DNA from: Allacma fusca
Lineage: Eukaryota; Arthropoda; Collembola; Symphypleona; Sminthuridae
Direction: 5' to 3'
Assembly (NCBI GenBank): GCA_947179485.1
Contig: OX359245.1
Coordinates: 3,701,001 to 3,765,000 of the forward strand
DNA: 64,000 nt
Part shown: positions 1,268 to 62,910 of the stretch, one piece after another
Position numbering within the stretch: the first letter of the stretch is position 1
Layout of the letters: the number at the start of each line of letters is the position of its first letter
The notes under the pieces: model-generated
What the model saw: only the letters and a program-made list of their open reading frames with translations
What the model was told of the DNA's origin: nothing
The model's database searches: none
Translations under genes and position numbers: made by a program

Positions 1268-1380
1268 ATGACAAGCAAGTTGTCCCCGAAAACCTATATC
1301 CCCCAACATTCAAAAATGGAGCAAAAATTATATTACCCACCACATGTGTCAAACTCAAATCATTAATTACCATGCTAGAA

Positions 1381-33700: not shown

Positions 33701-35408
33701 CATCTCGCTATCGAAACTTGCGGATGCTATTAATTCCAGGTGGCGCCGGAGGGGCTTGAAATACGCGAGAATACTTCGGGCCTCCTGAAGGGCGCTCTCC
33801 ACATTAAAGAACATATGTTTGTAACGGTCCCAGTAGCGGGATTTAGTTTTCTGAAGGATGAGGTTAATAACTTGAATCTTGTTTTCCTTCAGCTGGGAGA
33901 AGATACATTGGAGATCCTCTGCTCGATTTTCCCAGAACCGGAGTTCTTCTGCTGGGGTTGGATATTTCCCATTTTGGAATAGCTCCATCGAATCTCGCTC
34001 CAACACTTCCGACACCTGGTGACTCCATTTTAGGACCACAGTCTCGGCTTGCTTCTTCACCAGAAGGGTGAGGTCCTCACTGAGTCTACGATCAATAATA
34101 AAATAAGATATTATTTATTACCATGGAAACGCAGAATACTCCCTCTATTTTTAGTGCAATACACAGGAACTTTCAAATAAATATAGATCACTCATTGTCC
34201 TTTTCCAGATCCTGGGAGAGTTCCAGAAGGTTAAGTGGTACTGGAAGCCAAGTTTTCCCTTTGAGTTGACCCTTGAGGCTATGCAGTGTATTGGATATTA
34301 TCTGTGACCTTTCTTTACTGTCACTTACTACTTGGTCCGGCCATTTCTCGTCATTCATGTCCACCCATGAGATCGGACCAATTATCTGGAAATACATTTG
34401 TATCATTGCTTAGTCTTTTAATACTAAAGAAAGGTTCATGACCCTAAAATCCTGGTAACGTTTACCTGAATCCATCTGTACGGGCAGTATATTTAAATCT
34501 TGTTGGATGCAAATTAAAATATTTAATTATTATTTATCCCTAAGGAACCAGACATTTGGTAACAAATTGATGCAATTCGAAAGTTGGGTCAAAATCTGAC
34601 ACCCCACACTGGGCAAAAATTATTGTGGGGGCACATGCGAGTTTTTTAACTAGAATTTTCGTAAACTTTTTAATTTCCATATATGCTTTAATTCTGATAT
34701 TTTTTCCTAGGAATAAAATACCAGCCCTTACTAATAAAATTATCTCTCCCACGTCATAAACCATTTTAATGAGGAATTTAGCCTATTGAATTCTTTGAAT
34801 AAAAATTACTTCTTCCATATTTGTCACCAAGTTTTCCAAGAGCTGAGGGGATAAATCCCCGTAAATTAAATTCTCCTTAAATGTCGGGTCCTCCTTGTGC
34901 ATATATTGAGGATGCTTTTTGATAAAATAGCAGGATTTCGTCTTCGAAACCGTTGCGTATCCCTCCATGGCTGTTAGAATTCCGCTATTACTCAAAGTGA
35001 AGACCAGAACCTATAAATAAATACACAAAAATTGTAATTGTCTCAATAATACGATAAATAATTAAAACATTATTACAATAATTATGATTTCCACTAAATC
35101 CCCTTAAAATAAAATCTGGAAGACAAATATGGAATATAATTTGTTTGGAATCAATTGACTTTACTCTTAATTAAGGGGCACTCTGAGACGATTTAAAAAC
35201 TATTTGGAAATGAACTCACAGCGGCGTCTGTGACCTCGAGGAAGCTCGTCACAATTTTCCTGTATTCTTCCGTAGTGAGGAGTTTGGTCCATTTGTCCTG
35301 CTTAATCTTAAAGCATCTGGTCACATACTCAAAAATGAAATCCAGACGAAGATCTTGACCTGCCTCGTAAATCGTACCTTGATCTTTCCCTTTCCCTTTG
35401 CTCCCCAT
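18742..35408 (-). CDS. Axonemal dynein heavy chain, outer-arm beta type (DNAH9/11/17 class), 4,493 aa
   Basis: This is an AAA+ motor that slides doublet microtubules in cilia. Inferred exons, 5' to 3' on the minus strand: 35220-35408, 34810-35010, 34192-34385, 31610-34079, 30834-31516, 29915-30722, 29668-29799, 28472-29575, 28308-28334, 27792-28233, 27332-27715, 26937-27213, 26173-26825, 25422-25945, 25118-25279, 22578-24463, 22341-22479, 22017-22269, 19572-21907, 19160-19482, 18742-19036. They total 13,482 nt with every phase matching. P-loops: GPAGTGKT (AAA1, about 1878), GDAGTGKT (AAA2, about 2159), GSAGSGKT (AAA3, about 2487), GVGGSGKQ (AAA4, about 2833). The stalk coiled coils and microtubule-binding tip follow (about 3060-3400), then AAA5/6 and a C-terminal domain with [10 protein letters not shown] and [12 protein letters not shown]. 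Length and C-terminal wording match outer-arm beta chains. No frameshift or premature stop was seen, so the gene looks intact. Exact orthology within DNAH9/11/17 is not settled. Confidence 0.93.
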
Positions 35409-40680: not shown

Positions 40681-42201
40681 CTATCCCTTCATAGAAGGAA
40701 CATTGTTGATAGCCTTTAAAGCATTTATGATTCCATAACCTGCTCTGTTGTTGGGAAGCTGTGTATTGGGAACATCTCCACACATTCCCATCTCAGTGGT
40801 GGCAGGATCTGTTGATTTGATTAAGATGCTCCTGATATCTTCACGGGTCAACGCAGGATTCTTTTGTAGCATAAGAGCGACTATGCCAGCTACTACAGGC
40901 GTAGCAACACTGGTTCCAAAGGCCGATCTGTAGGACACATCGAAAACTGATTCAGGAACTATCGATTTAAAACCAGGAGCAACTAGGTCTGGCTTTATTA
41001 TACCAGATGGACCTGGACCAGCACTAGACATTGTCTCCACTTGATCATCCGGGTTGGACATTCCAACCCCTATAAACTCATCGTAATGACCTGGCGCTCC
41101 TGAAGATTTGCAAGCTATTTGGCCCCTATTCCCAATGGCGAATATAAAATTTATATCAGATTCGACTAATATAGGGATCACTTCTCTCATTGCAGAGTCA
41201 TCTTCATCAGGGAAGTAAGACCAACTATTAGTTACAACTCGGGGTGCCTTTGAACAATTCCTATTTTTACCTTGATAATCAGTGGGGCATATCATGAACT
41301 GGAGGCAAAGTATTGCCCAGTCTTCTCGGAAAGCATATTTTGTGGATGCTATGCATGCCATCCATTCGGCTCCGGGAGCCACACCGAATCCGTAATTACC
41401 GACCATCGGACCCAAACAAATAGTTCCGTGTCCCCTCGAAGGGAAATCGCGGGGTTTATCTGTCATTTGCTCTGGGTCGAACCACCCATAGTTTTCAGTT
41501 CCAACGTAGGCATCCTGAAAAGCGTCGTGACTCCATCGAACTCCAGTATCAATAATTCCAACACGAACGCCTGTTCCATCATAACCGAGATCCCAAACCG
41601 CAGGTGCTTGAACTCGTTTCACTCCCCAACTAAGGAGATCATCATCTCCTATTCCTAAATGTTTATCGGACCCCTTAAATTTGGTCCTCAATGGTTTTGT
41701 TTCATTTTCTTTGCTGTCAAATTCAAGTGTTTCATTAAACATTCCGTCCAAAATAATAACCTGCTTGATCGTGAAGACCTCAGGAATTGACACTAGTTGT
41801 TCAGCTAAATCCGAAGACGCCCCACTGATGGACAGCTGATTTGTTAACCAGAGTATGTGAAAACGTATTACTGACTTTTCTTTTTTCACGAGTTCAAGGG
41901 CGGACCTCTGGGAAGCTATTGCAAGAGCTTCTAACTCATCTGAGAGCAGCGACAATTTCTGAACTCTGTTTTGTACGGTTTTCAATTTATGGGATATTGT
42001 TTTCACAAATTCCTTTGGACGAGTTTTAAATGTAACCGTTATGTCAGCTATGGCGTTGTTATTGTAGAAAGATTTCAGTCCGGATGAAATCCCTTCCTCT
42101 TCAGCCATGACACTTGTGGGATTTAATAAACCTATTGGGCCTACAAATAAACCAACCACAAAAACGGTCAATCTGGGGTAGCACACATTAATTGTGATCA
42201 T
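40681..42201 (-). CDS. Secreted subtilisin-like serine protease (S8, bacillopeptidase F-like), intronless, 506 aa
   Basis: This is a secreted endopeptidase of the S8 family. Residues 1-33 form a signal peptide (hydrophobic LTVFVVGLFVGPIGLL). Residues 50-150 look like an I9-type inhibitor propeptide, followed by the catalytic domain. The triad is visible: Asp218 in GIIDTGV, His258 in GHGT and Ser431 in GTSVATP (GTSMAAP is commoner), with the oxyanion Asn358 in AIGNRG. The GVKRVQAPAVWDLGYDGTG lead-in resembles the bacillopeptidase F group and not the furin or site-1 protease groups, and no P-domain or transmembrane segment follows. The whole protein is one open frame, unlike the intron-rich neighbours. 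That fits retroposition or an old transfer from microbes, but an intronless arthropod gene is also possible. It has its own TATA-like box and polyadenylation signal, so it is probably functional. Substrate unknown. Confidence 0.9.
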   Translation of the reverse strand: MITINVCYPRLTVFVVGLFVGPIGLLNPTSVMAEEEGISSGLKSFYNNNAIADITVTFKTRPKEFVKTISHKLKTVQNRVQKLSLLSDELEALAIASQRSALELVKKEKSVIRFHILWLTNQLSISGASSDLAEQLVSIPEVFTIKQVIILDGMFNETLEFDSKENETKPLRTKFKGSDKHLGIGDDDLLSWGVKRVQAPAVWDLGYDGTGVRVGIIDTGVRWSHDAFQDAYVGTENYGWFDPEQMTDKPRDFPSRGHGTICLGPMVGNYGFGVAPGAEWMACIASTKYAFREDWAILCLQFMICPTDYQGKNRNCSKAPRVVTNSWSYFPDEDDSAMREVIPILVESDINFIFAIGNRGQIACKSSGAPGHYDEFIGVGMSNPDDQVETMSSAGPGPSGIIKPDLVAPGFKSIVPESVFDVSYRSAFGTSVATPVVAGIVALMLQKNPALTREDIRSILIKSTDPATTEMGMCGDVPNTQLPNNRAGYGIINALKAINNVPSMKG

Positions 42202-42262
42202 TGTTTTTATCTAAGGAATTGCGGGACTTATTGGCTTTTAACAATGTGATACGCTGTAGTAG

Positions 42263-45987: not shown

Positions 45988-46082
45988 TATGTACACATGT
46001 AAGGATAATTTTATTTATTTAGTGTAAAATGCATTATGTAATTTGAAAGCGGAAATTATATTGACTATATATACAGTTCAGC

Positions 46083-46190
46083 TACATCGGAGTGGTTCCA
46101 CGTGTTTATGGGATCCCCTTGACATTGGAGTTTCGACAAAAGGACTTGAGTGCTGCTGGATGGGAGGAATCTCCGGAGATGGAATATTAA
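46083..46190 (+). CDS. Candidate terminal exon cut by the tandem-array breakpoint
   Basis: A 35-codon frame follows TTCAGC and ends in TAA. It reads like conserved protein (YIGVVPRVYGIPLTLEF, then KDLSAAGWEESPEMEY). The left boundary of the tandem array (46110) lies inside it, so copies 2 and 3 (52312-52392, 58514-58594) keep only the part from GIPLTLEF onward. It may belong with the open frame at 45769-45987, but no in-phase splice joins them cleanly. Family unknown. Confidence 0.3.
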   Translation, partial: YIGVVPRVYGIPLTLEFRQKDLSAAGWEESPEMEY

Positions 46191-46361
46191 TCATCAAAAT
46201 AATTTTCAAAACAGATCCAATTGATATTGAGTAATTCTTGCTCGAGGTTTTAATACATCGAAATGGCCGATATCAATTCATTGACTTGTACATATTACTA
46301 CATTATAGACTACAGTACATTATTAGATACTCGTTTAATTTTTTGTTCAAATTGTAGACAG

Positions 46362-47151
46362 TTATAGAAGTATACCCGTGAGATATTTATAAGGAAATAC
46401 TCCAAAACTACTGGAAGAAACGATCAGAGAAGAGACTGTGAAGATCATAAATGGTTGCAGATTCAGAGCACCAGCATCCGGGTCGATGGTGGTGGATGTG
46501 GTTTTCATTACTCTTGGGTCGTGCTCTTCTATACTGTTGATGTTACACATGTGTTTGTCCTGATCTGGGTCGCAGGTGCAAGTCATAATGTGGCTCGTGT
46601 CATTTAGGACATATGTGATGACTACGTTGTCCTTCACACATTGGACCTCTATTCCTTTGGGGCTCGGAGCGGGAGCACATCCCCTCTTCACGAGAGGTCC
46701 TCGAGTTTGGGAGTAACAAGTGGAACACTCTTCATACTCGGTGTCGTTCAACTCATAGCCGTTGCCAATCTGTGCATTATATATCGAGGGTCGATCGCAG
46801 GATCCGAAATTGTAATGAATGGTTTCATTTGCGGCAGCATCCGGGTCCATATTCTTTTCACATTTAATGCAAACTCCTAATAACCAGCAAAACTGGGTGC
46901 GTATAATTATTGCCGTTCATAAAAAATTCCATGAAACAGTATTTATATGTTGGGACTTTTTTCAGTATTTTGTTTGAACTAATTAAAAAATGGTTAGTGG
47001 ATATAAATATGTTCTTTTGCGTTCCCCACAGAAGCTGACCTTTTTCACCGACGGGTTTGACGGAGTCTACTAACTGAATGCAGTTATTGATAACCAGTGA
47101 CAGAAAAATCAATGTCAATACCAGAATCTTCTCATTCTCCATCGTTGTCAT
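46362..47151 (-). CDS. Ly6/uPAR-type GPI-anchored protein, 208 aa (array copy 1)
   Basis: This is a surface glycoprotein of the three-finger (Ly6/uPAR) superfamily, a group that in insects includes neuronal and septate-junction proteins. Two exons: 47040-47151 and 46362-46876 (627 nt, phase 1 junction, GTCAGC donor and ATTAG acceptor). A signal peptide (KILVLTLIFLSLVINN) is followed by a domain with ten cysteines: VCIKC, GSC, ECSTC, RGC, VQC, TCTC and a final MCN. The closing Cys-Asn is the family signature. Three N-glycosylation sequons (NET and two NDT) are present. The C-terminus ends in a hydrophobic tail (FMIFTVSSLIVSSSSFGVF) after a small-residue stretch (DAGALN), as expected for GPI attachment. 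This copy keeps the original left flank. It is called an endogenous membrane-anchored protein because of the tail. Confidence 0.8.
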
Positions 47152-47370
47152 TATAATGTCCGGAGGAAATTTATCATTTATTTTATTCCTTTGGAGAAAA
47201 TAATCCGTCCACTTAATCTATGTGTAAATTGGCCAGTACACACAAAAATTCCAAATTTTGAGGGTAAGCGAGAATTATTCATACAATTTAATAATCGAGG
47301 GACTGTAGTAGGATCGTGGGACGTATGCTTGTATTTTTGTATTTGTAGGGATTTCAAAAATCCTTGTTAC

Positions 47371-48225
47371 TAAAAGCTTCTTCGTAGTATCGTAGTGTAG
47401 TAGTAGTTACATAGTTAGTGTTAGTAGTAGTGATTAGTGATGGTTGCCGGCCTTGAACCATAATGAAGCAGAGCGTTTCATTTTTTTCTTTCATTTTTTT
47501 ACGCAAAAAAATTCTTTAAAATAAAAAAAAAACATTTTTTCTATTATTTAAAATTTCTTTTGTGTTGATTTGGACAGAATAAAATTAAGTTGAACATTAT
47601 TTTTTGGTAACTATAACTTAAGCTTTTCAGAATACAAAAAAGATATAAATGTAAAAAATATAGAGCAGAAATACCTCATTGCTAAACAATTTATACATGC
47701 ATTTTGGAATTTTTACGGTTAATTCGAATAAATTACCACTTGATTATTATGTATACGCCTTTGAATATTTAGTACTGTGTGGTTAATGTGATCAGTTATC
47801 TTCTTTTACCCAACACTATTAATTTTCTAACTGTGGGTAAATCGTCCATTAGTACATACCAGACATTGAATGAATTAAAATTATGTATAGCTGTCTTGCA
47901 TTGCTAGCGTTCTGGATGATGCAAAATTTTGTACCCTTTCATGGTCAAAAATCAAGTAATGTAATAATCAAGAACCTATAAGTATGTTTACATTTTTTGA
48001 AAATAATATCAATTTTTGTAAGCCATGTTTGAATGTTCCACGTCCACCTGAACAAAATCTCCGCAAATAGCCTACACTTACTTGCATATACTTGACTGGC
48101 TCATTTAACCGTAGTAATAATTAGCCCACTCGATTTTTAAAATACAAATAATTCGTCACTGGTGCTCGACTTTAGCGAAAGAGTCGCTGTCATGAATATA
48201 TTGAAATTACACTAGAAGACTGAAA
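47371..48225. repeat. Dispersed non-coding repeat inside segment A
   Basis: Related to 42371-43200 with many substitutions and indels. It begins AAAAGCTTCTTCG with a GTAGTA-rich run and ends near TATTGAAATTACACTAG. Copies are carried along at 53573-54427 and 59775-60629. No coding capacity. It serves as the empty-site reference for the MITE at 42950. Confidence 0.7.
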
Positions 48226-48628
48226 ATAGTTACAGCCTTTCGTGCAACAATACTGGCGTCATAATGTCGAAGCGTCTTTTCCTAGAATCAAAGCGTTCAT
48301 CTAAAAAAAAATTTGACCAGGTCTAATAATTGTTGTAAAGTTGTCGAGCATATTGCTTAACAAACACAATTTCAAAGCAAGGCTGGCTGATAAACATTTG
48401 GTCAGCTTAATTAGTTTAAAAATTACCATTTGAAACGCACCCTGTATAGCCTTTATTTATTACAACCTTTAATTATTGTAAAAAACATAACATCAGATTA
48501 ATTTAAAAATAATTCTGAAATTTATTTTTTGTCAACCAACCTACAGGCAACCTAACAAAATTTAAAATACTCCTGATACGACGTTGCCCCAAATTTGTCC
48601 TAAATATCCTAACATAATTCGGATGAGC

Positions 48629-48817
48629 TTATTTTTGTAGATGCTGGTTTATAAACCTCCTCATGTCAGTTTCCACACGATTTTTGTTTATTCTAACAAC
48701 AGAAAAAGCCTGCTCATTCCCATAATATACTAATTTTATATACGATGAAACATCCAAGTCAAATTCTTGAAATAAAATCTTCCCCAAATTCTTGTATAGA
48801 ACCTGATAACAATGCAA
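48629..48817 (-). pseudogene. Possible hAT-type transposase C-terminal fragment (copy 1)
   Basis: A 62-codon frame contains YGNEQAFSVVRINKN followed by a DMRRFINQHLQ helix. This resembles the dimerization motif (N-x-x-E-R-x-FS-x-x-x-x-IKT) at the end of hAT/ZBED transposases. The rest of a transposase is absent, so it is read as a relic. Identical copies lie at 54831-55019 and 61033-61221. The family is tentative. Confidence 0.3.
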
Positions 48818-48908
48818 AATGCAATTTACTTAAACATTAAATCCAATAATTTAATGTTCAAGATGAACTGACTTCAAACCAAATATTATTGTTCCACAAT
48901 ACTCTCAC

Positions 48909-49739
48909 ATGCCCCGAATTACATATGTATACATGGCTCAACTGAAAAAAGAATTTGCTTTAAAATCACAGAAAGTCTTATCAGATGGACAACATTTCTC
49001 TTCAGAGTTGAGATTTTTAAATGGTATGGAAATCATTTATGATCATCTTTCCAATACAGAGGATTCGCAATTCTTCGATGAAGATACAGAACGAGAAGCG
49101 AAAACAACGTCTGTTAAATATTACACAGCTGAATTTTTCTTGCTATCAAAAACCACTGTCCTCAAAAATACAAACCAGAAGAAAATCAACTGGGATAGTT
49201 ACTCGTGCAAAACGAAGGTCAACTTTCCGAGATATTTAAAAGAAGTCACTGAAATTCTACAAGTGTTTACAAGATATAAAGAAGATTTTGAAAAAATTTC
49301 TGCATTTCCTGATGCAAGCACTATTCTTCAGAATCTAGACAAGATGTATGCCCAACAAGATTTAAAAGCTCAAAAATCTGGAGAACGTACAAATAAACAG
49401 CCTACTCAACAGCATTGCTCCTCCAATTCTTCATCAACCATTATCCAACATAATAGAGGAAACCCCTACAATGCTCTCAAGAAATATTCAAATGGACCTT
49501 CATCTCGTAATTTTAACCGTTCAGGGAATTACCAGCGCTACAACCAGCATGCTAATAGTCATCATAACAACGGATTCCGAAATCCCCGAAGACCTCCTCG
49601 AAACAATTCTCGAAATTTTCACCAACAACAACAACAGTTAAAAGATCAGTTTCAAGAATCCCATGACAAGAATCAATCCAGAATTCCCATCAGCAATATT
49701 AGATTAGCTGATCTAGACCTTTCCACCACCAATAAATGA
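48909..49739 (+). CDS. Retroelement ORF1, putative RNA-binding, 276 aa (copy 1)
   Basis: The N-terminal half (about 1-150) is charged and predicted helical. The C-terminal half is low complexity, rich in Asn, Gln, Arg, Ser and His (NRSGNYQRYNQHANSHHNN, PRRPPRNNSRN, HQQQQQ). This is the kind of basic disordered tail that binds RNA in nucleocapsid-like proteins, though no zinc knuckle is present. It ends at a TGA (49737-49739), after which the same frame continues without interruption into the reverse transcriptase. A role in packaging the element RNA is inference. The ATG at 48909 was chosen as the first in frame after the upstream TGA. Confidence 0.65.
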   Translation: MPRITYVYMAQLKKEFALKSQKVLSDGQHFSSELRFLNGMEIIYDHLSNTEDSQFFDEDTEREAKTTSVKYYTAEFFLLSKTTVLKNTNQKKINWDSYSCKTKVNFPRYLKEVTEILQVFTRYKEDFEKISAFPDASTILQNLDKMYAQQDLKAQKSGERTNKQPTQQHCSSNSSSTIIQHNRGNPYNALKKYSNGPSSRNFNRSGNYQRYNQHANSHHNNGFRNPRRPPRNNSRNFHQQQQQLKDQFQESHDKNQSRIPISNIRLADLDLSTTNK

Positions 49740-51713
49740 GATGAAGATGGCTCAAACTCTAAGAATAATAAGTACAACCGAAGATTTATAAGCATCAACA
49801 AAATCACGCCACCAGAACTAAAATCATTCAATAAACAAATTACGAAGATAATAGCACTTACAAAAAACAGTGATTCGATTTTGCATAACCTGACAACAAT
49901 TAAAATTCCAACTCTTTTAGATTTAATATGTAAACTTGGCCCTAAATTTTGCCCACATACTATATTTAATAAGAATATTTTAAGAAATGAACTCAAGGAA
50001 GGAATTAGGAAAATTAGTTGGAAGCTATTTTTTAATGACAACGTTAATAATAACTTCACGAAACTCAAACAACTCTTACACAAAGCTAAAGTGGAAAATA
50101 ACGGTAAAACACACTGTGATTTAGAAGAAACCTTTTCCAGTGTAGACGCCATTGGTAATGCAACAGATGAATTTGTGACTAATAATAATTACTGTACAAA
50201 TTCATTCCCAAACCCTTTAATAATTAACTGGTGCAAAGAATTTCTTCACACCAACCAATTATTATTAATTTCGGCAGATAAAAATGCAGGTTTGGTAATT
50301 TGTAACACTGTTGACTATAATAACGAAGTATTTAAACAATTATATAACACAAATAACTATAGGGTTGTTAGCAAAGACGAATTTTCCGACAGCATATTTT
50401 TAATACGAAATGAAATAATTAATTATGAATCTCTATTTAAAAATATTTGTAAGCTTACATCCCTAATACCTGATAAATTCGCCCCAGCTAAATTTTATGT
50501 ACTACCAAAGGTTCATAAATTACAAACAAATGAGAATAAGTTTCCACCGGGAAGACCAATTAGTGCCAACTGTAACACGTTTAATAGACATGTTAGCAAA
50601 TTACTAGATATAATCCTACAACCAGTAATGCTTAATGTACCTCATATTATTTTAGATACGAATCATTTTTTACTATTACTGACTACAATCCATTTAAATC
50701 CAAATAGAAAGTACATGCTAACTACTTCGGACGTGGATTCCTTATATCCTTCATTACCCCCAAAAGTATGTATTAATAATATCATGGCCATTTTTAATGA
50801 ATACAATATAAATCCGTATAATTTGACTGAATTTATGCTTAAATTATTGCTTAAATGGACACTCTACAAAAACTATGTAATGTTTCAAGACATTATTCTG
50901 GAACAAATCTCAGGAATAGCAATGGGAAATACAGCAAGTGTAGCTATTGCTAACATAACTGTATTCAAAGAACTAATTAGTATTCTTTCACACAAACTAA
51001 TTGTATTCCACGGTAGATATATTGATGATATATTTTTTATTGTTGACGTAACAGAAATGACCAACTTTGATTTATGGCTACATGATAACTTTCAACATAA
51101 ATTTCTCAAGTTTACACATAAATTTAGTACTGATTCAGTTGAATTTCTGGATGTGATGGTCATATTGAAGCAAGGAAATATTTTAGAAACTTCACTTTTT
51201 AAAAAGCCAATGGTGAAACAACTTTACCTTCACTTCAATAGCAACCATTCTAAGAAAACCCTTCAAATCCTGCCTTACTCTCAAGGACTACGCATTATTA
51301 AACTCTGTTCAAGTTTGACTGACAGATTGGTTAAGTTACATAATCTAATGCTGGAATTCCTTAAACGTGAATATCCATTAGAATTATTAATTAATACTGT
51401 TAATAGACTACTAGCATTAGAAAGGGACTCATTACTGTTACCCAGGAAGCCTTTAATAATTAATTATATCTCCAAATTCAATCCAAGTTTATTTAGAGAC
51501 ACCAGGCCCATTACCATCAATAATGAAGTCAACACAATTTACCTGGCTTTAACATACAATAGTAATATCAGTAATATGAAAGACTTTGTACAGAATTTGT
51601 TTGTCAATAACCTAAATGCTATTACACATCCGGACTACACAGCAGTAGCAAAGCAAATCACAATAAAAACTGCTTTTAAGAGAAGCAACAATATTATAGA
51701 ATTGCTCAAGTAA
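49740..51713 (+). CDS. Reverse transcriptase of Penelope-like element, 657 codons, no AUG start (copy 1)
   Basis: RNA-dependent DNA polymerase. Counting from codon 48 of the frame (49881), landmarks are: ISADKNAGLVI (about 130-140), AKFYVLPKVHK (203-213), GRPISAN (224-230), TTSDVDSLYPSLP (281-293), SGIAMGNTASVAIAN (344-358), catalytic YIDD in GRYIDDIFF (378-386), VEFLDV (420-425), and YLHFNSNH plus LPYSQGLRI. These are typical of Penelope-like elements. The thumb ends with TAFKRSNNIIELLK, exactly where other family members continue into a zinc-binding linker and GIY-YIG nuclease; here a stop follows. No AUG occurs in the first 296 codons after the TGA, the first lying inside the polymerase domain. 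Expression therefore probably needs readthrough or recoding from ORF1. The frame has no other stop, so the domain looks intact. Confidence 0.85.
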   Translation, partial: DEDGSNSKNNKYNRRFISINKITPPELKSFNKQITKIIALTKNSDSILHNLTTIKIPTLLDLICKLGPKFCPHTIFNKNILRNELKEGIRKISWKLFFNDNVNNNFTKLKQLLHKAKVENNGKTHCDLEETFSSVDAIGNATDEFVTNNNYCTNSFPNPLIINWCKEFLHTNQLLLISADKNAGLVICNTVDYNNEVFKQLYNTNNYRVVSKDEFSDSIFLIRNEIINYESLFKNICKLTSLIPDKFAPAKFYVLPKVHKLQTNENKFPPGRPISANCNTFNRHVSKLLDIILQPVMLNVPHIILDTNHFLLLLTTIHLNPNRKYMLTTSDVDSLYPSLPPKVCINNIMAIFNEYNINPYNLTEFMLKLLLKWTLYKNYVMFQDIILEQISGIAMGNTASVAIANITVFKELISILSHKLIVFHGRYIDDIFFIVDVTEMTNFDLWLHDNFQHKFLKFTHKFSTDSVEFLDVMVILKQGNILETSLFKKPMVKQLYLHFNSNHSKKTLQILPYSQGLRIIKLCSSLTDRLVKLHNLMLEFLKREYPLELLINTVNRLLALERDSLLLPRKPLIINYISKFNPSLFRDTRPITINNEVNTIYLALTYNSNISNMKDFVQNLFVNNLNAITHPDYTAVAKQITIKTAFKRSNNIIELLK

Positions 51714-52311
51714 TACTTGCTTGAGTACTAACTATGCCCGCGAAATGTATAATTTTAAAGTGTTTAATGTGAGCTCACACTCAGCTTTCAAGTTGTAAGC
51801 CACACAGTCACAGCCTCCAACTCAAACCTGTGAAAGAGGGCAGTTCTGAATTACTTTAATTTTTCATAATTGTGTATTTTCCATAAAAATATTGCAAAAC
51901 CCTAAAAGGATTTTGACATGTAAGCATTTTTATATTCACTATTTCTACTGGAAATTGCAATATTCTACTATAAGGATTGAATTGTGGGTTTTTTATTTGT
52001 TTTTATTTGTTTTTATTATGTATCTCTAATACGAGCCAATGTTTTTTATCATGTCTCTATTACGAACCAATGTTTTTTACGTAAGGCAATGATTTATGTT
52101 TAGCTACATACTACCAATCAGAATAGCGTCACCTGTCACATTATTATAATCGTTTGGACTTATTCATTACCTGTGAATTTCTCCTTGTTTTCCAGTACAC
52201 ATTCTATCTGAAGAACTCACTGCTGTGGACAATTACTCACTTATTTTTCACCATTACTAATTATTCAAAGTAAGATTTTGAGCCGCCATTATGTATGAAT
52301 ATAATTTTATA
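51714..52311. other. 3' non-coding part of the retroelement (copy 1)
   Basis: No frame. It contains a TTTTTATTTG direct repeat near 51990-52015 and a duplicated phrase (TACGAGCCAATGTTTTTTA / TACGAACCAATGTTTTTTA at about 52031 and 52061). A CTGAAGA at 52208-52214 resembles part of a hammerhead core, but the rest of the ribozyme was not found. The same sequence is at 57916-58513. Confidence 0.5.
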
Positions 52312-52563
52312 GGGATCCCCTTGACATTGGAGTTTCGACAAAAGGACTTGAGTGCTGCTGGATGGGAGGAATCTCCGGAGATGGAATATTAATCATCAAA
52401 ATAATTTTCAAAACAGATCCAATTGATATTGAGTAATTCTTGCTCGAGGTTTTAATACATCGAAATGGCCGATATCAATTCATTGACTTGTACATATTAC
52501 TACATTATAGACTACAGTACATTATTAGATACTCGTTTAATTTTTTGTTCAAATTGTAGACAG

Positions 52564-53353
52564 TTATAGAAGTATACCCGTGAGATATTTATAAGGAAAT
52601 ACTCCAAAACTACTGGAAGAAACGATCAGAGAAGAGACTGTGAAGATCATAAATGGTTGCAGATTCAGAGCACCAGCATCCGGGTCGATGGTGGTGGATG
52701 TGGTTTTCATTACTCTTGGGTCGTGCTCTTCTATACTGTTGATGTTACACATGTGTTTGTCCTGATCTGGGTCGCAGGTGCAAGTCATAATGTGGCTCGT
52801 GTCATTTAGGACATATGTGATGACTACGTTGTCCTTCACACATTGGACCTCTATTCCTTTGGGGCTCGGAGCGGGAGCACATCCCCTCTTCACGAGAGGT
52901 CCTCGAGTTTGGGAGTAACAAGTGGAACACTCTTCATACTCGGTGTCGTTCAACTCATAGCCGTTGCCAATCTGTGCATTATATATCGAGGGTCGATCGC
53001 AGGATCCGAAATTGTAATGAATGGTTTCATTTGCGGCAGCATCCGGGTCCATATTCTTTTCACATTTAATGCAAACTCCTAATAACCAGCAAAACTGGGT
53101 GCGTATAATTATTGCCGTTCATAAAAAATTCCATGAAACAGTATTTATATGTTGGGACTTTTTTCAGTATTTTGTTTGAACTAATTAAAAAATGGTTAGT
53201 GGATATAAATATGTTCTTTTGCGTTCCCCACAGAAGCTGACCTTTTTCACCGACGGGTTTGACGGAGTCTACTAACTGAATGCAGTTATTGATAACCAGT
53301 GACAGAAAAATCAATGTCAATACCAGAATCTTCTCATTCTCCATCGTTGTCAT
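52564..53353 (-). CDS. Ly6/uPAR-type GPI-anchored protein, 208 aa (array copy 2)
   Basis: Exons 53242-53353 and 52564-53078. The product is identical to the copy at 46362-47151, including signal peptide, ten cysteines, terminal CN and hydrophobic tail. This copy lies between two retroelements: one ends 250 bp beyond its 3' end and the next begins about 1.7 kb upstream. All of segment A is retained, so its promoter should be preserved. Confidence 0.78.
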
Positions 53354-54830
53354 TATAATGTCCGGAGGAAATTTATCATTTATTTTATTCCTTTGGAGAA
53401 AATAATCCGTCCACTTAATCTATGTGTAAATTGGCCAGTACACACAAAAATTCCAAATTTTGAGGGTAAGCGAGAATTATTCATACAATTTAATAATCGA
53501 GGGACTGTAGTAGGATCGTGGGACGTATGCTTGTATTTTTGTATTTGTAGGGATTTCAAAAATCCTTGTTACTAAAAGCTTCTTCGTAGTATCGTAGTGT
53601 AGTAGTAGTTACATAGTTAGTGTTAGTAGTAGTGATTAGTGATGGTTGCCGGCCTTGAACCATAATGAAGCAGAGCGTTTCATTTTTTTCTTTCATTTTT
53701 TTACGCAAAAAAATTCTTTAAAATAAAAAAAAAACATTTTTTCTATTATTTAAAATTTCTTTTGTGTTGATTTGGACAGAATAAAATTAAGTTGAACATT
53801 ATTTTTTGGTAACTATAACTTAAGCTTTTCAGAATACAAAAAAGATATAAATGTAAAAAATATAGAGCAGAAATACCTCATTGCTAAACAATTTATACAT
53901 GCATTTTGGAATTTTTACGGTTAATTCGAATAAATTACCACTTGATTATTATGTATACGCCTTTGAATATTTAGTACTGTGTGGTTGATGTGATCAGTTA
54001 TCTTCTTTTACCCAACACTATTAATTTTCTAACTGTGGGTAAATCGTCCATTAGTACATACCAGACATTGAATGAATTAAAATTATGTATAGCTGTCTTG
54101 CATTGCTAGCGTTCTGGATGATGCAAAATTTTGTACCCTTTCATGGTCAAAAATCAAGTAATGTAATAATCAAGAACCTATAAGTATGTTTACATTTTTT
54201 GAAAATAATATCAATTTTTGTAAGCCATGTTTGAATGTTCCACGTCCACCTGAACAAAATCTCCGCAAATAGCCTACACTTACTTGCATATACTTGACTG
54301 GCTCATTTAACCGTAGTAATAATTAGCCCACTCGATTTTTAAAATACAAATAATTCGTCACTGGTGCTCGACTTTAGCGAAAGAGTCGCTGTCATGAATA
54401 TATTGAAATTACACTAGAAGACTGAAAATAGTTACAGCCTTTCGTGCAACAATACTGGCGTCATAATGTCGAAGCGTCTTTTCCTAGAATCAAAGCGTTC
54501 ATCTAAAAAAAAATTTGACCAGGTCTAATAATTGTTGTAAAGTTGTCGAGCATATTGCTTAACAAACACAATTTCAAAGCAAGGCTGGCTGATAAACATT
54601 TGGTCAGCTTAATTAGTTTAAAAATTACCATTTGAAACGCACCCTGTATAGCCTTTATTTATTACAACCTTTAATTATTGTAAAAAACATAACATCAGAT
54701 TAATTTAAAAATAATTCTGAAATTTATTTTTTGTCAACCAACCTACAGGCAACCTAACAAAATTTAAAATACTCCTGATACGACGTTGCCCCAAATTTGT
54801 CCTAAATATCCTAACATAATTCGGATGAGC

Positions 54831-55019
54831 TTATTTTTGTAGATGCTGGTTTATAAACCTCCTCATGTCAGTTTCCACACGATTTTTGTTTATTCTAACA
54901 ACAGAAAAAGCCTGCTCATTCCCATAATATACTAATTTTATATACGATGAAACATCCAAGTCAAATTCTTGAAATAAAATCTTCCCCAAATTCTTGTATA
55001 GAACCTGATAACAATGCAA
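54831..55019 (-). pseudogene. Possible hAT transposase fragment (copy 2)
   Basis: Identical to 48629-48817; carried by the array duplication. Confidence 0.28.
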
Positions 55020-55110
55020 AATGCAATTTACTTAAACATTAAATCCAATAATTTAATGTTCAAGATGAACTGACTTCAAACCAAATATTATTGTTCCACA
55101 ATACTCTCAC

Positions 55111-55941
55111 ATGCCCCGAATTACATATGTATACATGGCTCAACTGAAAAAAGAATTTGCTTTAAAATCACAGAAAGTCTTATCAGATGGACAACATTTC
55201 TCTTCAGAGTTGAGATTTTTAAATGGTATGGAAATCATTTATGATCATCTTTCCAATACAGAGGATTCGCAATTCTTCGATGAAGATACAGAACGAGAAG
55301 CGAAAACAACGTCTGTTAAATATTACACAGCTGAATTTTTCTTGCTATCAAAAACCACTGTCCTCAAAAATACAAACCAGAAGAAAATCAACTGGGATAG
55401 TTACTCGTGCAAAACGAAGGTCAACTTTCCGAGATATTTAAAAGAAGTCACTGAAATTCTACAAGTGTTTACAAGATATAAAGAAGATTTTGAAAAAATT
55501 TCTGCATTTCCTGATGCAAGCACTATTCTTCAGAATCTAGACAAGATGTATGCCCAACAAGATTTAAAAGCTCAAAAATCTGGAGAACGTACAAATAAAC
55601 AGCCTACTCAACAGCATTGCTCCTCCAATTCTTCATCAACCATTATCCAACATAATAGAGGAAACCCCTACAATGCTCTCAAGAAATATTCAAATGGACC
55701 TTCATCTCGTAATTTTAACCGTTCAGGGAATTACCAGCGCTACAACCAGCATGCTAATAGTCATCATAACAACGGATTCCGAAATCCCCGAAGACCTCCT
55801 CGAAACAATTCTCGAAATTTTCACCAACAACAACAACAGTTAAAAGATCAGTTTCAAGAATCCCATGACAAGAATCAATCCAGAATTCCCATCAGCAATA
55901 TTAGATTAGCTGATCTAGACCTTTCCACCACCAATAAATGA
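55111..55941 (+). CDS. Retroelement ORF1 (copy 2)
   Basis: 276 aa, identical in translation to 48909-49739, including the Asn/Gln/Arg-rich tail and the terminal TGA (55939-55941). Confidence 0.65.
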   Translation: MPRITYVYMAQLKKEFALKSQKVLSDGQHFSSELRFLNGMEIIYDHLSNTEDSQFFDEDTEREAKTTSVKYYTAEFFLLSKTTVLKNTNQKKINWDSYSCKTKVNFPRYLKEVTEILQVFTRYKEDFEKISAFPDASTILQNLDKMYAQQDLKAQKSGERTNKQPTQQHCSSNSSSTIIQHNRGNPYNALKKYSNGPSSRNFNRSGNYQRYNQHANSHHNNGFRNPRRPPRNNSRNFHQQQQQLKDQFQESHDKNQSRIPISNIRLADLDLSTTNK

Positions 55942-57915
55942 GATGAAGATGGCTCAAACTCTAAGAATAATAAGTACAACCGAAGATTTATAAGCATCAA
56001 CAAAATCACGCCACCAGAACTAAAATCATTCAATAAACAAATTACGAAGATAATAGCACTTACAAAAAACAGTGATTCGATTTTGCATAACCTGACAACA
56101 ATTAAAATTCCAACTCTTTTAGATTTAATATGTAAACTTGGCCCTAAATTTTGCCCACATACTATATTTAATAAGAATATTTTAAGAAATGAACTCAAGG
56201 AAGGAATTAGGAAAATTAGTTGGAAGCTATTTTTTAATGACAACGTTAATAATAACTTCACGAAACTCAAACAACTCTTACACAAAGCTAAAGTGGAAAA
56301 TAACGGTAAAACACACTGTGATTTAGAAGAAACCTTTTCCAGTGTAGACGCCATTGGTAATGCAACAGATGAATTTGTGACTAATAATAATTACTGTACA
56401 AATTCATTCCCAAACCCTTTAATAATTAACTGGTGCAAAGAATTTCTTCACACCAACCAATTATTATTAATTTCGGCAGATAAAAATGCAGGTTTGGTAA
56501 TTTGTAACACTGTTGACTATAATAACGAAGTATTTAAACAATTATATAACACAAATAACTATAGGGTTGTTAGCAAAGACGAATTTTCCGACAGCATATT
56601 TTTAATACGAAATGAAATAATTAATTATGAATCTCTATTTAAAAATATTTGTAAGCTTACATCCCTAATACCTGATAAATTCGCCCCAGCTAAATTTTAT
56701 GTACTACCAAAGGTTCATAAATTACAAACAAATGAGAATAAGTTTCCACCGGGAAGACCAATTAGTGCCAACTGTAACACGTTTAATAGACATGTTAGCA
56801 AATTACTAGATATAATCCTACAACCAGTAATGCTTAATGTACCTCATATTATTTTAGATACGAATCATTTTTTACTATTACTGACTACAATCCATTTAAA
56901 TCCAAATAGAAAGTACATGCTAACTACTTCGGACGTGGATTCCTTATATCCTTCATTACCCCCAAAAGTATGTATTAATAATATCATGGCCATTTTTAAT
57001 GAATACAATATAAATCCGTATAATTTGACTGAATTTATGCTTAAATTATTGCTTAAATGGACACTCTACAAAAACTATGTAATGTTTCAAGACATTATTC
57101 TGGAACAAATCTCAGGAATAGCAATGGGAAATACAGCAAGTGTAGCTATTGCTAACATAACTGTATTCAAAGAACTAATTAGTATTCTTTCACACAAACT
57201 AATTGTATTCCACGGTAGATATATTGATGATATATTTTTTATTGTTGACGTAACAGAAATGACCAACTTTGATTTATGGCTACATGATAACTTTCAACAT
57301 AAATTTCTCAAGTTTACACATAAATTTAGTACTGATTCAGTTGAATTTCTGGATGTGATGGTCATATTGAAGCAAGGAAATATTTTAGAAACTTCACTTT
57401 TTAAAAAGCCAATGGTGAAACAACTTTACCTTCACTTCAATAGCAACCATTCTAAGAAAACCCTTCAAATCCTGCCTTACTCTCAAGGACTACGCATTAT
57501 TAAACTCTGTTCAAGTTTGACTGACAGATTGGTTAAGTTACATAATCTAATGCTGGAATTCCTTAAACGTGAATATCCATTAGAATTATTAATTAATACT
57601 GTTAATAGACTACTAGCATTAGAAAGGGACTCATTACTGTTACCCAGGAAGCCTTTAATAATTAATTATATCTCCAAATTCAATCCAAGTTTATTTAGAG
57701 ACACCAGGCCCATTACCATCAATAATGAAGTCAACACAATTTACCTGGCTTTAACATACAATAGTAATATCAGTAATATGAAAGACTTTGTACAGAATTT
57801 GTTTGTCAATAACCTAAATGCTATTACACATCCGGACTACACAGCAGTAGCAAAGCAAATCACAATAAAAACTGCTTTTAAGAGAAGCAACAATATTATA
57901 GAATTGCTCAAGTAA
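55942..57915 (+). CDS. Reverse transcriptase of Penelope-like element (copy 2)
   Basis: Identical in translation to 49740-51713, in frame with its ORF1 across a single TGA, with the YIDD catalytic motif intact and no endonuclease. Since the two copies are products of one duplication, their agreement is not independent evidence that the TGA is selected. Confidence 0.85.
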   Translation, partial: DEDGSNSKNNKYNRRFISINKITPPELKSFNKQITKIIALTKNSDSILHNLTTIKIPTLLDLICKLGPKFCPHTIFNKNILRNELKEGIRKISWKLFFNDNVNNNFTKLKQLLHKAKVENNGKTHCDLEETFSSVDAIGNATDEFVTNNNYCTNSFPNPLIINWCKEFLHTNQLLLISADKNAGLVICNTVDYNNEVFKQLYNTNNYRVVSKDEFSDSIFLIRNEIINYESLFKNICKLTSLIPDKFAPAKFYVLPKVHKLQTNENKFPPGRPISANCNTFNRHVSKLLDIILQPVMLNVPHIILDTNHFLLLLTTIHLNPNRKYMLTTSDVDSLYPSLPPKVCINNIMAIFNEYNINPYNLTEFMLKLLLKWTLYKNYVMFQDIILEQISGIAMGNTASVAIANITVFKELISILSHKLIVFHGRYIDDIFFIVDVTEMTNFDLWLHDNFQHKFLKFTHKFSTDSVEFLDVMVILKQGNILETSLFKKPMVKQLYLHFNSNHSKKTLQILPYSQGLRIIKLCSSLTDRLVKLHNLMLEFLKREYPLELLINTVNRLLALERDSLLLPRKPLIINYISKFNPSLFRDTRPITINNEVNTIYLALTYNSNISNMKDFVQNLFVNNLNAITHPDYTAVAKQITIKTAFKRSNNIIELLK

Positions 57916-58765
57916 TACTTGCTTGAGTACTAACTATGCCCGCGAAATGTATAATTTTAAAGTGTTTAATGTGAGCTCACACTCAGCTTTCAAGTTGTAA
58001 GCCACACAGTCACAGCCTCCAACTCAAACCTGTGAAAGAGGGCAGTTCTGAATTACTTTAATTTTTCATAATTGTGTATTTTCCATAAAAATATTGCAAA
58101 ACCCTAAAAGGATTTTGACATGTAAGCATTTTTATATTCACTATTTCTACTGGAAATTGCAATATTCTACTATAAGGATTGAATTGTGGGTTTTTTATTT
58201 GTTTTTATTTGTTTTTATTATGTATCTCTAATACGAGCCAATGTTTTTTATCATGTCTCTATTACGAACCAATGTTTTTTACGTAAGGCAATGATTTATG
58301 TTTAGCTACATACTACCAATCAGAATAGCGTCACCTGTCACATTATTATAATCGTTTGGACTTATTCATTACCTGTGAATTTCTCCTTGTTTTCCAGTAC
58401 ACATTCTATCTGAAGAACTCACTGCTGTGGACAATTACTCACTTATTTTTCACCATTACTAATTATTCAAAGTAAGATTTTGAGCCGCCATTATGTATGA
58501 ATATAATTTTATAGGGATCCCCTTGACATTGGAGTTTCGACAAAAGGACTTGAGTGCTGCTGGATGGGAGGAATCTCCGGAGATGGAATATTAATCATCA
58601 AAATAATTTTCAAAACAGATCCAATTGATATTGAGTAATTCTTGCTCGAGGTTTTAATACATCGAAATGGCCGATATCAATTCATTGACTTGTACATATT
58701 ACTACATTATAGACTACAGTACATTATTAGATACTCGTTTAATTTTTTGTTCAAATTGTAGACAG

Positions 58766-59555
58766 TTATAGAAGTATACCCGTGAGATATTTATAAGGAA
58801 ATACTCCAAAACTACTGGAAGAAACGATCAGAGAAGAGACTGTGAAGATCATAAATGGTTGCAGATTCAGAGCACCAGCATCCGGGTCGATGGTGGTGGA
58901 TGTGGTTTTCATTACTCTTGGGTCGTGCTCTTCTATACTGTTGATGTTACACATGTGTTTGTCCTGATCTGGGTCGCAGGTGCAAGTCATAATGTGGCTC
59001 GTGTCATTTAGGACATATGTGATGACTACGTTGTCCTTCACACATTGGACCTCTATTCCTTTGGGGCTCGGAGCGGGAGCACATCCCCTCTTCACGAGAG
59101 GTCCTCGAGTTTGGGAGTAACAAGTGGAACACTCTTCATACTCGGTGTCGTTCAACTCATAGCCGTTGCCAATCTGTGCATTATATATCGAGGGTCGATC
59201 GCAGGATCCGAAATTGTAATGAATGGTTTCATTTGCGGCAGCATCCGGGTCCATATTCTTTTCACATTTAATGCAAACTCCTAATAACCAGCAAAACTGG
59301 GTGCGTATAATTATTGCCGTTCATAAAAAATTCCATGAAACAGTATTTATATGTTGGGACTTTTTTCAGTATTTTGTTTGAACTAATTAAAAAATGGTTA
59401 GTGGATATAAATATGTTCTTTTGCGTTCCCCACAGAAGCTGACCTTTTTCACCGACGGGTTTGACGGAGTCTACTAACTGAATGCAGTTATTGATAACCA
59501 GTGACAGAAAAATCAATGTCAATACCAGAATCTTCTCATTCTCCATCGTTGTCAT
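58766..59555 (-). CDS. Ly6/uPAR-type GPI-anchored protein, 208 aa (array copy 3)
   Basis: Exons 59444-59555 and 58766-59280, identical in product to the other two. Segment A here ends at 61262 and joins unique sequence, so this copy has the ancestral upstream neighbourhood of the gene, while copy 1 has the ancestral downstream side. Confidence 0.78.
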
Positions 59556-61032
59556 TATAATGTCCGGAGGAAATTTATCATTTATTTTATTCCTTTGGAG
59601 AAAATAATCCGTCCACTTAATCTATGTGTAAATTGGCCAGTACACACAAAAATTCCAAATTTTGAGGGTAAGCGAGAATTATTCATACAATTTAATAATC
59701 GAGGGACTGTAGTAGGATCGTGGGACGTATGCTTGTATTTTTGTATTTGTAGGGATTTCAAAAATCCTTGTTACTAAAAGCTTCTTCGTAGTATCGTAGT
59801 GTAGTAGTAGTTACATAGTTAGTGTTAGTAGTAGTGATTAGTGATGGTTGCCGGCCTTGAACCATAATGAAGCAGAGCGTTTCATTTTTTTCTTTCATTT
59901 TTTTACGCAAAAAAATTCTTTAAAATAAAAAAAAAACATTTTTTCTATTATTTAAAATTTCTTTTGTGTTGATTTGGACAGAATAAAATTAAGTTGAACA
60001 TTATTTTTTGGTAACTATAACTTAAGCTTTTCAGAATACAAAAAAGATATAAATGTAAAAAATATAGAGCAGAAATACCTCATTGCTAAACAATTTATAC
60101 ATGCATTTTGGAATTTTTACGGTTAATTCGAATAAATTACCACTTGATTATTATGTATACGCCTTTGAATATTTAGTACTGTGTGGTTAATGTGATCAGT
60201 TATCTTCTTTTACCCAACACTATTAATTTTCTAACTGTGGGTAAATCGTCCATTAGTACATACCAGACATTGAATGAATTAAAATTATGTATAGCTGTCT
60301 TGCATTGCTAGCGTTCTGGATGATGCAAAATTTTGTACCCTTTCATGGTCAAAAATCAAGTAATGTAATAATCAAGAACCTATAAGTATGTTTACATTTT
60401 TTGAAAATAATATCAATTTTTGTAAGCCATGTTTGAATGTTCCACGTCCACCTGAACAAAATCTCCGCAAATAGCCTACACTTACTTGCATATACTTGAC
60501 TGGCTCATTTAACCGTAGTAATAATTAGCCCACTCGATTTTTAAAATACAAATAATTCGTCACTGGTGCTCGACTTTAGCGAAAGAGTCGCTGTCATGAA
60601 TATATTGAAATTACACTAGAAGACTGAAAATAGTTACAGCCTTTCGTGCAACAATACTGGCGTCATAATGTCGAAGCGTCTTTTCCTAGAATCAAAGCGT
60701 TCATCTAAAAAAAAATTTGACCAGGTCTAATAATTGTTGTAAAGTTGTCGAGCATATTGCTTAACAAACACAATTTCAAAGCAAGGCTGGCTGATAAACA
60801 TTTGGTCAGCTTAATTAGTTTAAAAATTACCATTTGAAACGCACCCTGTATAGCCTTTATTTATTACAACCTTTAATTATTGTAAAAAACATAACATCAG
60901 ATTAATTTAAAAATAATTCTGAAATTTATTTTTTGTCAACCAACCTACAGGCAACCTAACAAAATTTAAAATACTCCTGATACGACGTTGCCCCAAATTT
61001 GTCCTAAATATCCTAACATAATTCGGATGAGC

Positions 61033-61221
61033 TTATTTTTGTAGATGCTGGTTTATAAACCTCCTCATGTCAGTTTCCACACGATTTTTGTTTATTCTAA
61101 CAACAGAAAAAGCCTGCTCATTCCCATAATATACTAATTTTATATACGATGAAACATCCAAGTCAAATTCTTGAAATAAAATCTTCCCCAAATTCTTGTA
61201 TAGAACCTGATAACAATGCAA
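61033..61221 (-). pseudogene. Possible hAT transposase fragment (copy 3)
   Basis: Identical to 48629-48817. It ends 41 bp before the array boundary. Confidence 0.28.
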
Positions 61222-61262
61222 AATGCAATTTACTTAAACATTAAATCCAATAATTTAATGTT

Positions 61263-61788
61263 TGCAGACACAGTCGCAGTTATCCATATAATCATATTGT
61301 ATTTATTTATTCACTAAATCGTTGTTTCACGGAAGATAACACATTTCAATTCATATGCACCTCCATAACTGTATTAATTATCACCTCCATATATATATCC
61401 TATAATATTTCATTTTTGCATTGATTCGTATTTTTTTTATATATATAATCATTAATAACTTTCAAAAGGGCTCGAGTGCATTGTAACGCTTGCATTATTG
61501 TTACGCATATATTATATAATAATAATAATTCTATATTGATCTCCAATATACCGATAATATCTCTATGACATTGATTATATACGTATAACGTGGGGGTAAT
61601 TATTATAGATTTCTACAGATTGAGGAATAAAATACAAAGGAATATATATATATGCATGCGTAAAATATATAACAACTATTACAGTGACTCGGTGACTCGA
61701 CTGGGAAAAATAATAATTGCAAGAACAAAAAAAAATTGTGAACAAGTACATCATAGTGACAAAATGAGAATGACTTATTATTGTTTCT
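61263..61788. other. Gene-free AT-rich stretch right of the array
   Basis: No coding frame was supported. It holds TA-rich runs (61430-61450, 61505-61530) and probably contains the 3' untranslated region of the minus-strand gene that ends at 61810. Confidence 0.5.
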
Positions 61789-61808
61789 TCTCTCTCTCTC
61801 TCTCTCTC
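61789..61808 (+). repeat. (TC)10 microsatellite in the 3' UTR
   Basis: Ten TC dinucleotides end one base before the stop codon region of the minus-strand gene, so in the mRNA they form a GA tract just after the stop. Confidence 0.9.
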
Positions 61809-61809
61809 T

Positions 61810-62910
61810 TTAGGACATTTTCCTAAAAGTGATTTCAGAAGTATGACGAGATGTGGAGTAAATAGAGTCCCTGCCTCTACTGAAGGTCCCAGCGGGGGGA
61901 CTATTTTTCCCCCAAGCTCCATGATTGTTGACGAGGACCGGTGTCTTGTAGAACTGTTGAGTGTTCCAAGTATCTGCAGGTTTGTTGTTGTTGTTGGAGT
62001 TGTTGCTATTATTATTGGTGTTATTGCTACTGCTAATATTACTACTTCGAACTGCATCCCTAGGGATGGAGTACCCGGCAGAGATGACCGTTCCTCTGGA
62101 GTAAGTCCCATTGGATTTCCAAGGGTTCTTGACAAAATCATGGAGGGTCATGGAGGGGCCGGTACACATCCCGGCGGATGGAGGACGCTCACTCCGTCCC
62201 TCCACGACAGCAATGGAAGCTCTTGAAGATTTCTTGGATGAGATGGGCAGAGGGATATGGACCTCATTGTAGAATTGATCTTGAGCCTCTTCATAGTCAT
62301 CGTCCTCCTCGGCCAGTCCATGATGGTCCAAGCGGGGAGCATACTTGTGATGATGATGGTGGACACTGTCAATCTTACTGTTGCTCGGCGTCAACTTAAG
62401 TGACATTCGTCCAAGGTTGGATTTCTTGAAAGTATTGTTGCTGTTGAATAAGTTTTGGGATTGTTGGGGGAGCTTCTGCTGCAGATCATGATTACTCGAG
62501 GATGACATTGACGAGGAGGATGATCCTTTCATATCGGAGGAGGAGTGACTCGACTGACTACTTTTATTCGTGGACTTGGACTTGGTGGAACTGTTTGGGG
62601 AGACATCGGCGGAGGAATTGTGGGGTCCAGACTCGGCTGTGGAGGAAGCCTTGCTCAAGGTGGACATGTGGGACTGGAGTGTGGTCATTGCGGAGGATCC
62701 ATTCGGAATGTGATGGTTTCGGAGGGCCCGGCGTCGCTCCTTACTCATGTAGATACATTCCTGGAGGAGGGTGTACCATTGCTCCAGAGCTTCGTAAGTG
62801 TCACTGAGGGTCCGCAGTAATAGACGAGATTCTTGCGGGAGAAGAACGGCTATTATCGGACCACTTTTCCGGGATTCCCACTCAATTGTCTCCACATCGG
62901 CGAGGCGTAA
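61810..62910 (-). CDS. Last coding exon of a large low-complexity protein with a PH-like end (partial gene)
   Basis: An acceptor (TTTTTACAG) opens a 366-codon frame that ends in TAA next to the TC microsatellite. The first about 65 residues look like the end of a pleckstrin-homology-type domain: IIAVLLPQESRLLLRT, then a helix with SDTYEALEQWYTLLQEC and KERRRALRNH. The remainder is disordered and Ser/Asn/His-rich (SSSSSMSSSSNHD, HHHHH, NNTNNNSNNSNNNN). It contains an acidic EEDDDYEEAQDQFYNEV and a tail with repeated Tyr-Ser-Arg/Ser-Arg-Gly motifs (GTYSRGTVIS, GTFSRGRDSIYSTSRH). Such tails occur in signalling adaptors and exchange factors, but the gene was not identified. Upstream exons were not found before 64000, so the gene probably continues outside the window. 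Confidence 0.7.
   Translation of the reverse strand, partial: LRLADVETIEWESRKSGPIIAVLLPQESRLLLRTLSDTYEALEQWYTLLQECIYMSKERRRALRNHHIPNGSSAMTTLQSHMSTLSKASSTAESGPHNSSADVSPNSSTKSKSTNKSSQSSHSSSDMKGSSSSSMSSSSNHDLQQKLPQQSQNLFNSNNTFKKSNLGRMSLKLTPSNSKIDSVHHHHHKYAPRLDHHGLAEEDDDYEEAQDQFYNEVHIPLPISSKKSSRASIAVVEGRSERPPSAGMCTGPSMTLHDFVKNPWKSNGTYSRGTVISAGYSIPRDAVRSSNISSSNNTNNNSNNSNNNNKPADTWNTQQFYKTPVLVNNHGAWGKNSPPAGTFSRGRDSIYSTSRHTSEITFRKMS

Follow-up and report, generated by a model that had tools for sequence, protein, structure and literature searches.

How is a reverse transcriptase (RT) made when its reading frame lies directly behind a stop codon and offers no AUG? The question is raised by a retroelement copy of the collembolan Allacma fusca, in a 64,000-nucleotide stretch of contig OX359245.1 (positions 3,701,001 to 3,765,000 of assembly GCA_947179485.1; hereafter the window). 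In this copy a single TGA is the only stop between a fragment of a first reading frame (ORF1) and an RT frame that is open from the next base, in the same frame as ORF1, and is closed by a TAA after 657 codons (Table 1). An earlier note on this DNA had described the frame from the ATG at 48909 (276 aa) as open past the TGA as far as 51713, with no AUG for 296 codons after the stop. Both statements were borne out: there is no other stop, and an in-frame ATG is absent for 296, 296 and 295 codons in the one copy examined from each of the window and two further groups, B and S, described below. The stop is overlapped by an ATG (as ATGA) in the window and in S; this ATG is in a different frame from the RT. 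In a longer B copy the ORF1 frame continues upstream to an ATG, giving 434 aa, and the ATG at 48909 is therefore an internal Met codon.

Table 1. Coordinates of the features discussed, numbered from the first base of the window.
Feature	Position	Strand	Basis or remark
Retroelement copy, both ends truncated relative to the 4197-bp tandem unit found elsewhere in the genome	48866..52311	+	Match limits common to most other B copies
ORF1 fragment, C-terminal 276 codons of the 434-codon ORF1	48909..49736	+	Frame open from 48867
In-frame TGA	49737..49739	+	Kept in every junction-covering copy found
18 AUG-less codons directly 3' of the TGA, under coding constraint; contain the RRF block	49740..49793	+	dN/dS 0.055, p=0.0022, alignment
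ATC (ATT in S, ATA in L029) at the column of the relatives' Met (11 of the 13 with a letter)	49794..49796	+	Alignments
RT frame, 657 codons then TAA, without a GIY-YIG endonuclease	49740..51713	+	Searches, alignment, model
TTG, start proposed in the earlier note; TTA in S, not conserved	49881..49883	+	Comparison with S
Second element copy, in a segmental duplication (window-copy coordinates +6202); TGA at 55939-55941	55068..58513	+	Self-comparison

We searched the genome (392.7 Mb in 91 contigs) with the two frames and obtained at least 42 matches; all match counts given here are lower bounds, because genome searches score only the best candidates. The matches form three main groups, namely the window pair, group B (about 97% identical) and group S (about 80% identical), together with a few further fragments at 80-91% identity. 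Group B copies are often arrayed head to tail, with 4197 bp per unit, and 22 of the aligned B rows cover the junction. Group S consists of ten copies in one array (unit 4125 bp) plus a single partial copy; the array lies at G000:C12:58593551-58633475, about 177-217 kb from the contig end. The TGA is present in 36 of 36 junction-covering matches, including those of the divergent group S. This count is made up of 34 of the 36 aligned rows (22 B, 11 S and 1 window), the second window copy, and L029, a fragmented copy of 91% identity; six of the 42 matches and two of the 36 aligned rows lack the junction and were left out. Indeed, no copy in this genome was found to have a sense codon at this position, which the earlier note had named as the mark of a recent nonsense mutation. 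A local nonsense mutation is thus ruled out by the 36 concordant matches, and a conserved TGA ahead of an AUG-less RT is confirmed as a real feature of the element.

The earlier note had also drawn attention to the second TGA of the window as identical to the first. Identical it is, but it carries no independent weight, because the second copy is part of a segmental duplication: a tandem repeat of about 6.2 kb (6202 bp), 99.97% identical, with two full units and a partial third, which also holds other sequence, including reading frames on the opposite strand. Viewed as a whole, positions 46105-61262 form an array of the type A-B-A-B-A, in which a 2.75-kb segment A alternates with the truncated element. 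Segment A has minus-strand frames for small proteins, Ly6-like by eye and free of Pfam domains. At the duplication junctions the truncated element is accompanied by 7 bp of filler (48859-48865) and an overlap of about 6 bp (52306-52311), an arrangement which suggests that it was captured during break repair or duplication. Elsewhere in the window, a satellite with a period of 156 bp occupies two inverted blocks at 1268-7472, and frames at 19473-34114 and 40681-42210 (minus strand) resemble, by eye, exons of a dynein heavy chain and a protease of the MBTPS1/subtilisin type, which gives the genome an animal-like character.

Apart from the TGA, 17 of the 19 B rows covering the entire stretch are free of stops and frameshifts. 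Among the ten full S rows, two have the TGA and the final stop only, four have an extra stop at codon 65 and four are frameshifted, two of the latter also carrying the codon-65 stop. Elsewhere in the genome the element reaches past both ends of the window copy. In 10 of the 11 3' ends inspected it breaks off at the same position, give or take a few bases, with different flanks, the eleventh (L014) ending earlier; the layout has therefore been mobile recently. The 5' ends vary among copies, and the first units of tandem arrays are 5'-truncated. The combination of a common 3' end with varied 5' ends fits target-primed insertion with 5' truncation, and one copy, L018, is flanked by what is, judged by eye, probably an 8-bp target-site duplication.

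The RT itself belongs to a little-known group. A protein search with it returned 207 proteins, and among the best 120 listed, 37 stand apart (E 1.3e-110 to 1.7e-73), the next being at E 8.3e-45 and weaker. A profile search added two partial members, so that the clade has at least 39 other members. For all 39 (P0001-P0037, P0121 and P0122) the longest contig is 0.97-4.83 kb, about one element unit, and these members are possibly free or tandem-derived forms. We built a tree of 48 rows, consisting of the window, B and S copies, 32 members and 13 outgroup proteins; seven members (P0033-P0037, P0121 and P0122) were omitted as short or partial, and the named Penelope clades and telomerase (TERT) lie outside this set. 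The window, B and S copies are sister to the 32 members, and the resulting 35-row clade is split from the outgroup at 100/100. The nearest proteins outside the clade are RTs, several with RVT_1 and GIY-YIG domains; we call the outgroup Penelope-like by this RT plus GIY-YIG architecture, as given in an excerpt of PMC11167929. None of the 38 aligned members matches the GIY-YIG endonuclease at E<=0.01. The RT model (pLDDT 85) has telomerases as its top three solved matches in Foldseek, the best being 6zdu (E 1.7e-8, with a TMq of only 0.39), and LINE-1 and retron RTs follow close behind. A PDB sequence search gave one weak, irrelevant match, a viral fold search gave general polymerase folds only, and scans of IMG/VR and prokaryote contigs gave nothing useful. 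On these grounds we place the element as a relative of the Penelope-like elements (PLEs), of the endonuclease-less kind, in a deep clade beside them.

ORF1 is less readily assigned. Its tail is basic and rich in Asn and Gln, and from this composition its product is presumed to bind RNA. A homologue search with the 276-aa fragment as query yielded 351 candidates, none at E<=1; Pfam gave no useful match to the 434-aa protein; and a fold predicted from the single sequence was uninformative (pLDDT 41).

Are the codons behind the TGA translated? For these comparisons we took a single copy each from the window, B and S. Between the window and an intact S copy the RT shows dS 0.97, dN 0.103 and dN/dS 0.11, and ORF1 shows dN/dS 0.17; selection therefore acts on both sides of the UGA. 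Constraint is weaker between the window and B (dN/dS 0.38 for ORF1 and 0.195 for the RT), with no changes in the 18 codons after the TGA. In the window and S, these 18 codons differ by 7 synonymous and 5 nonsynonymous changes, and the first 47 by 20 and 16 (binomial p=2.9e-6); the first seven codons alone give p=0.063. These values amount to essentially one independent comparison, and the binomial test takes codon changes as independent. On the 5' side, the ORF1 C-terminus RIPISNIRLADL is well preserved between the window and S right up to the TGA. In 60-nt steps, identity between B and S ranges from 0.60 to 0.95 across both frames, with 0.70 for the step containing the TGA and 0.82 for the one after it, and falls to 0.32-0.65 3' of the RT stop. 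Identity alone is no proof of coding, because a stretch of about 180 nt preceding the ORF1 ATG reaches 0.73-0.80 as well. The selection on the codons right after the TGA is, however, of the coding type, and these codons therefore look translated without an AUG.

For this reason UGA readthrough, which the earlier note had put forward, is in our judgment probably the best explanation of RT expression. The observations behind that proposal stand: the TGA in every junction-covering match, purifying selection beyond it and the lack of an in-frame AUG. Readthrough itself, its efficiency and the fusion protein are what we infer from them. Most ribosomes would halt at the conserved UGA and release the ORF1 protein; in a minority a near-cognate tRNA would be accepted at the UGA, and translation would run on into the telomerase-like RT, whose AUG-less frame is that of ORF1, to give an ORF1-RT fusion. 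Such rare decoding would set a low ratio of RT to ORF1, as in the gag-pol of murine leukaemia virus (MLV). The locus is thus most likely a programmed readthrough site, conserved in this genome, in a little-known retroelement clade.

A stimulator of readthrough is not evident. The conserved RNA structure that the earlier note envisaged just downstream of the TGA did not appear: folds of the 60-150 nt after the stop in the window, B and S did not rise above shuffles (z -0.23 to 1.25), in a test that covers minimum-energy folds with local, pseudoknot-free pairing. Synonymous changes around the TGA are not suppressed between the window and S. The TGA is followed by G in the window and B and by A in S, and not by the C of the leaky stop context UGA-C. 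We also considered A-to-I editing of the UGA and rejected it; the A that would be edited is preceded by a 5' G, which is unfavourable for such editing, and no strong local structure was found. Stimulatory structures accompany the readthrough stops of MLV and alphaviruses, as set out in an excerpt of PMC8310308. We found no report of readthrough in Penelope-like elements in our searches of an open-access library, and in-frame stops in Penelope copies elsewhere have been taken as defects (PMC3846280, in excerpt).

The chief rival to readthrough is non-AUG initiation, in which the RT would be started at a near-cognate codon, with that at 49794 as the most plausible site, by ribosomes that had either ended translation at the UGA or been recruited internally. 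We regard this as unlikely, although it ranks first among the alternatives. The codon stays near-cognate throughout (ATC in the window and B, ATT in S and ATA in L029, which keeps the TGA), and at this column, codon 19 of the RT frame, Met is found in 11 of the 13 relatives that have a letter there, out of 37 aligned; these counts come from protein sequences, whose starts are chosen by gene callers. Met, Ile or Val at this column would, however, equally suit an ordinary hydrophobic residue. Moreover, initiation here would leave codons 1-18 untranslated, and it is these upstream codons that are under coding constraint (p=0.0022). They include an R[RH]F block that recurs upstream of the Met column in all three relatives with letters there (RRF in P0002 and P0008, RHF in P0009), which suggests that in those relatives, too, the protein starts further upstream. 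The ATGA at the stop, in the window and S, recalls the stop-restart coupling known from the SART1 retrotransposon, in which the ORF1 stop likewise adjoins the RT cistron (PMC5972666, in excerpt); here, in contrast, the overlapping ATG is out of the RT frame and there is no in-frame AUG. The earlier note had named the TTG at 49881 as a candidate start, and this is rejected because the codon is TTA in S.

The Met column invites a historical reading as well. Judged from the alignment, it is possibly an ancestral start that is missing from this lineage. Since Met occupies the column in most relatives with a letter, the wider clade may as a rule initiate its RT separately. That the ancestral RT start was lost in this lineage and that readthrough took over is a tentative suggestion, to which we give slightly less than even weight.

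Alternative splicing could take the TGA out of the RT mRNA and leave the unspliced RNA to encode ORF1. The earlier note thought this less likely than readthrough; we agree and consider it improbable. There are 15 in-frame GT..AG pairs kept in the window, B and S, the best of which joins the GT at 49387 to a pyrimidine-rich AG at 49920, a fair and conserved acceptor, and an intron has been reported in a Penelope ORF (PMC3846280, in excerpt). The donor at 49387, however, is weak, matching the consensus at 5 of 9 positions in the window and 7 of 9 in S. Moreover, removal of 49387-49920 would delete the basic tail of ORF1 and the first RT codons, including the segment constrained in the RT frame and an HNL motif common in relatives, and identity between B and S shows no collapse over this region. 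A constitutive intron over the TGA is likewise disfavoured by the identity profile, the constraint in the RT frame and the splice-site survey.

Selenoproteins have been reported from some Penelope-like clades (the Naiad elements), and the earlier note had offered decoding of the UGA as selenocysteine as an alternative. Our searches of an open-access library brought up no paper on Penelope-like elements with selenocysteine or a selenoprotein. The host does have a tRNA-Sec (76.7 bits against a cut-off of 47, anticodon TCA), the one part of the selenocysteine machinery that our test covered; fourteen weaker matches to the same model (L034-L040 and further places) score 40.8-45.6 bits, under the cut-off. 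The element therefore resembles known selenocysteine recoding in its UGA and in the host tRNA-Sec, and differs from it in that no SECIS was found, whether downstream, where the earlier note would have placed one, or elsewhere in the sequences searched with Rfam at E<=5 (window positions 46000-62500 and copies L009, L014 and L024). A rather narrow motif expression gave a single SECIS candidate, which is confined to S and lies within ORF1 sequence. In the model, the first 20 residues behind the UGA are disordered (pLDDT about 33-36), with no evident role for selenium. Because no SECIS was found and this stretch is predicted to be disordered, selenocysteine is not supported, and we hold it to be very improbable. 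Equally improbable is a dead layout, with the RT coming from an undetected master copy that has a sense codon or an AUG, and with the known copies moved in trans: our copy counts, as lower bounds, leave room for such a copy, but the TGA stands in 36 of 36 junction-covering matches, and RT dN/dS near 0.11 at dS about 0.9-1.0 in B and S is unexpected for lineages copied only in trans.

With readthrough as the preferred reading, how does the element compare with known systems? The RT is nearest, outside its own clade, to RTs some of which combine RVT_1 and GIY-YIG, and the head-to-tail copies with 5'-truncated first units (4197 bp in B, 4125 bp in S) are a PLE trait according to an excerpt of PMC11167929. 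According to the same excerpt, a single ORF encodes the enzymes of canonical PLEs. In contrast to the canonical PLE ORF, the element has no GIY-YIG domain, and it differs further in its separate ORF1 and conserved in-frame UGA. Hammerhead ribozymes, a trait of PLE terminal repeats, gave no Rfam match at E<=5 in window positions 46000-62500, L009, L014 or L024. In the mostly diverged non-coding sequence, B and S have in common the string CTGATGATGAAA[AC]TTTGACTCGAAACATGTCGTTTGAATAAA, about 764 nt (L014) and 711 nt (L024) after the RT stop; its letters are hammerhead-like, without a stem II when inspected by hand. Endonuclease-deficient PLEs are known (PMC3846280, in excerpt), and the element is like these, the rotifer telomeric type, in having an RT without an endonuclease, as compared by description. 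Unlike the rotifer elements, the copies here lie inside chromosome-size contigs. Inspection by eye of flanks of 40-50 nt at 14 loci (ten 5' ends, one of them a run of N, and eleven 3' ends) revealed no recognisable telomeric repeat.

The order of first ORF, in-frame stop and polymerase in the same frame is that of MLV gag-pol, and the conserved stop with coding constraint on both sides is likewise as in MLV-type readthrough. In contrast, MLV uses UAG with a 3' pseudoknot (PMC8310308, in excerpt), and the element, which is not a retrovirus, has UGA with no structure detected.

A conserved UGA separating ORF1 from an RT that lacks an AUG would show recoding to be a means by which relatives of the Penelope-like elements, too, set the ratio of enzyme to first protein. 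The many near-identical natural copies, with a sister family of 80% identity in the same genome, make a direct test feasible. If true, a site that is read through with no stimulator in evidence would also shed light on how animals decode UGA.
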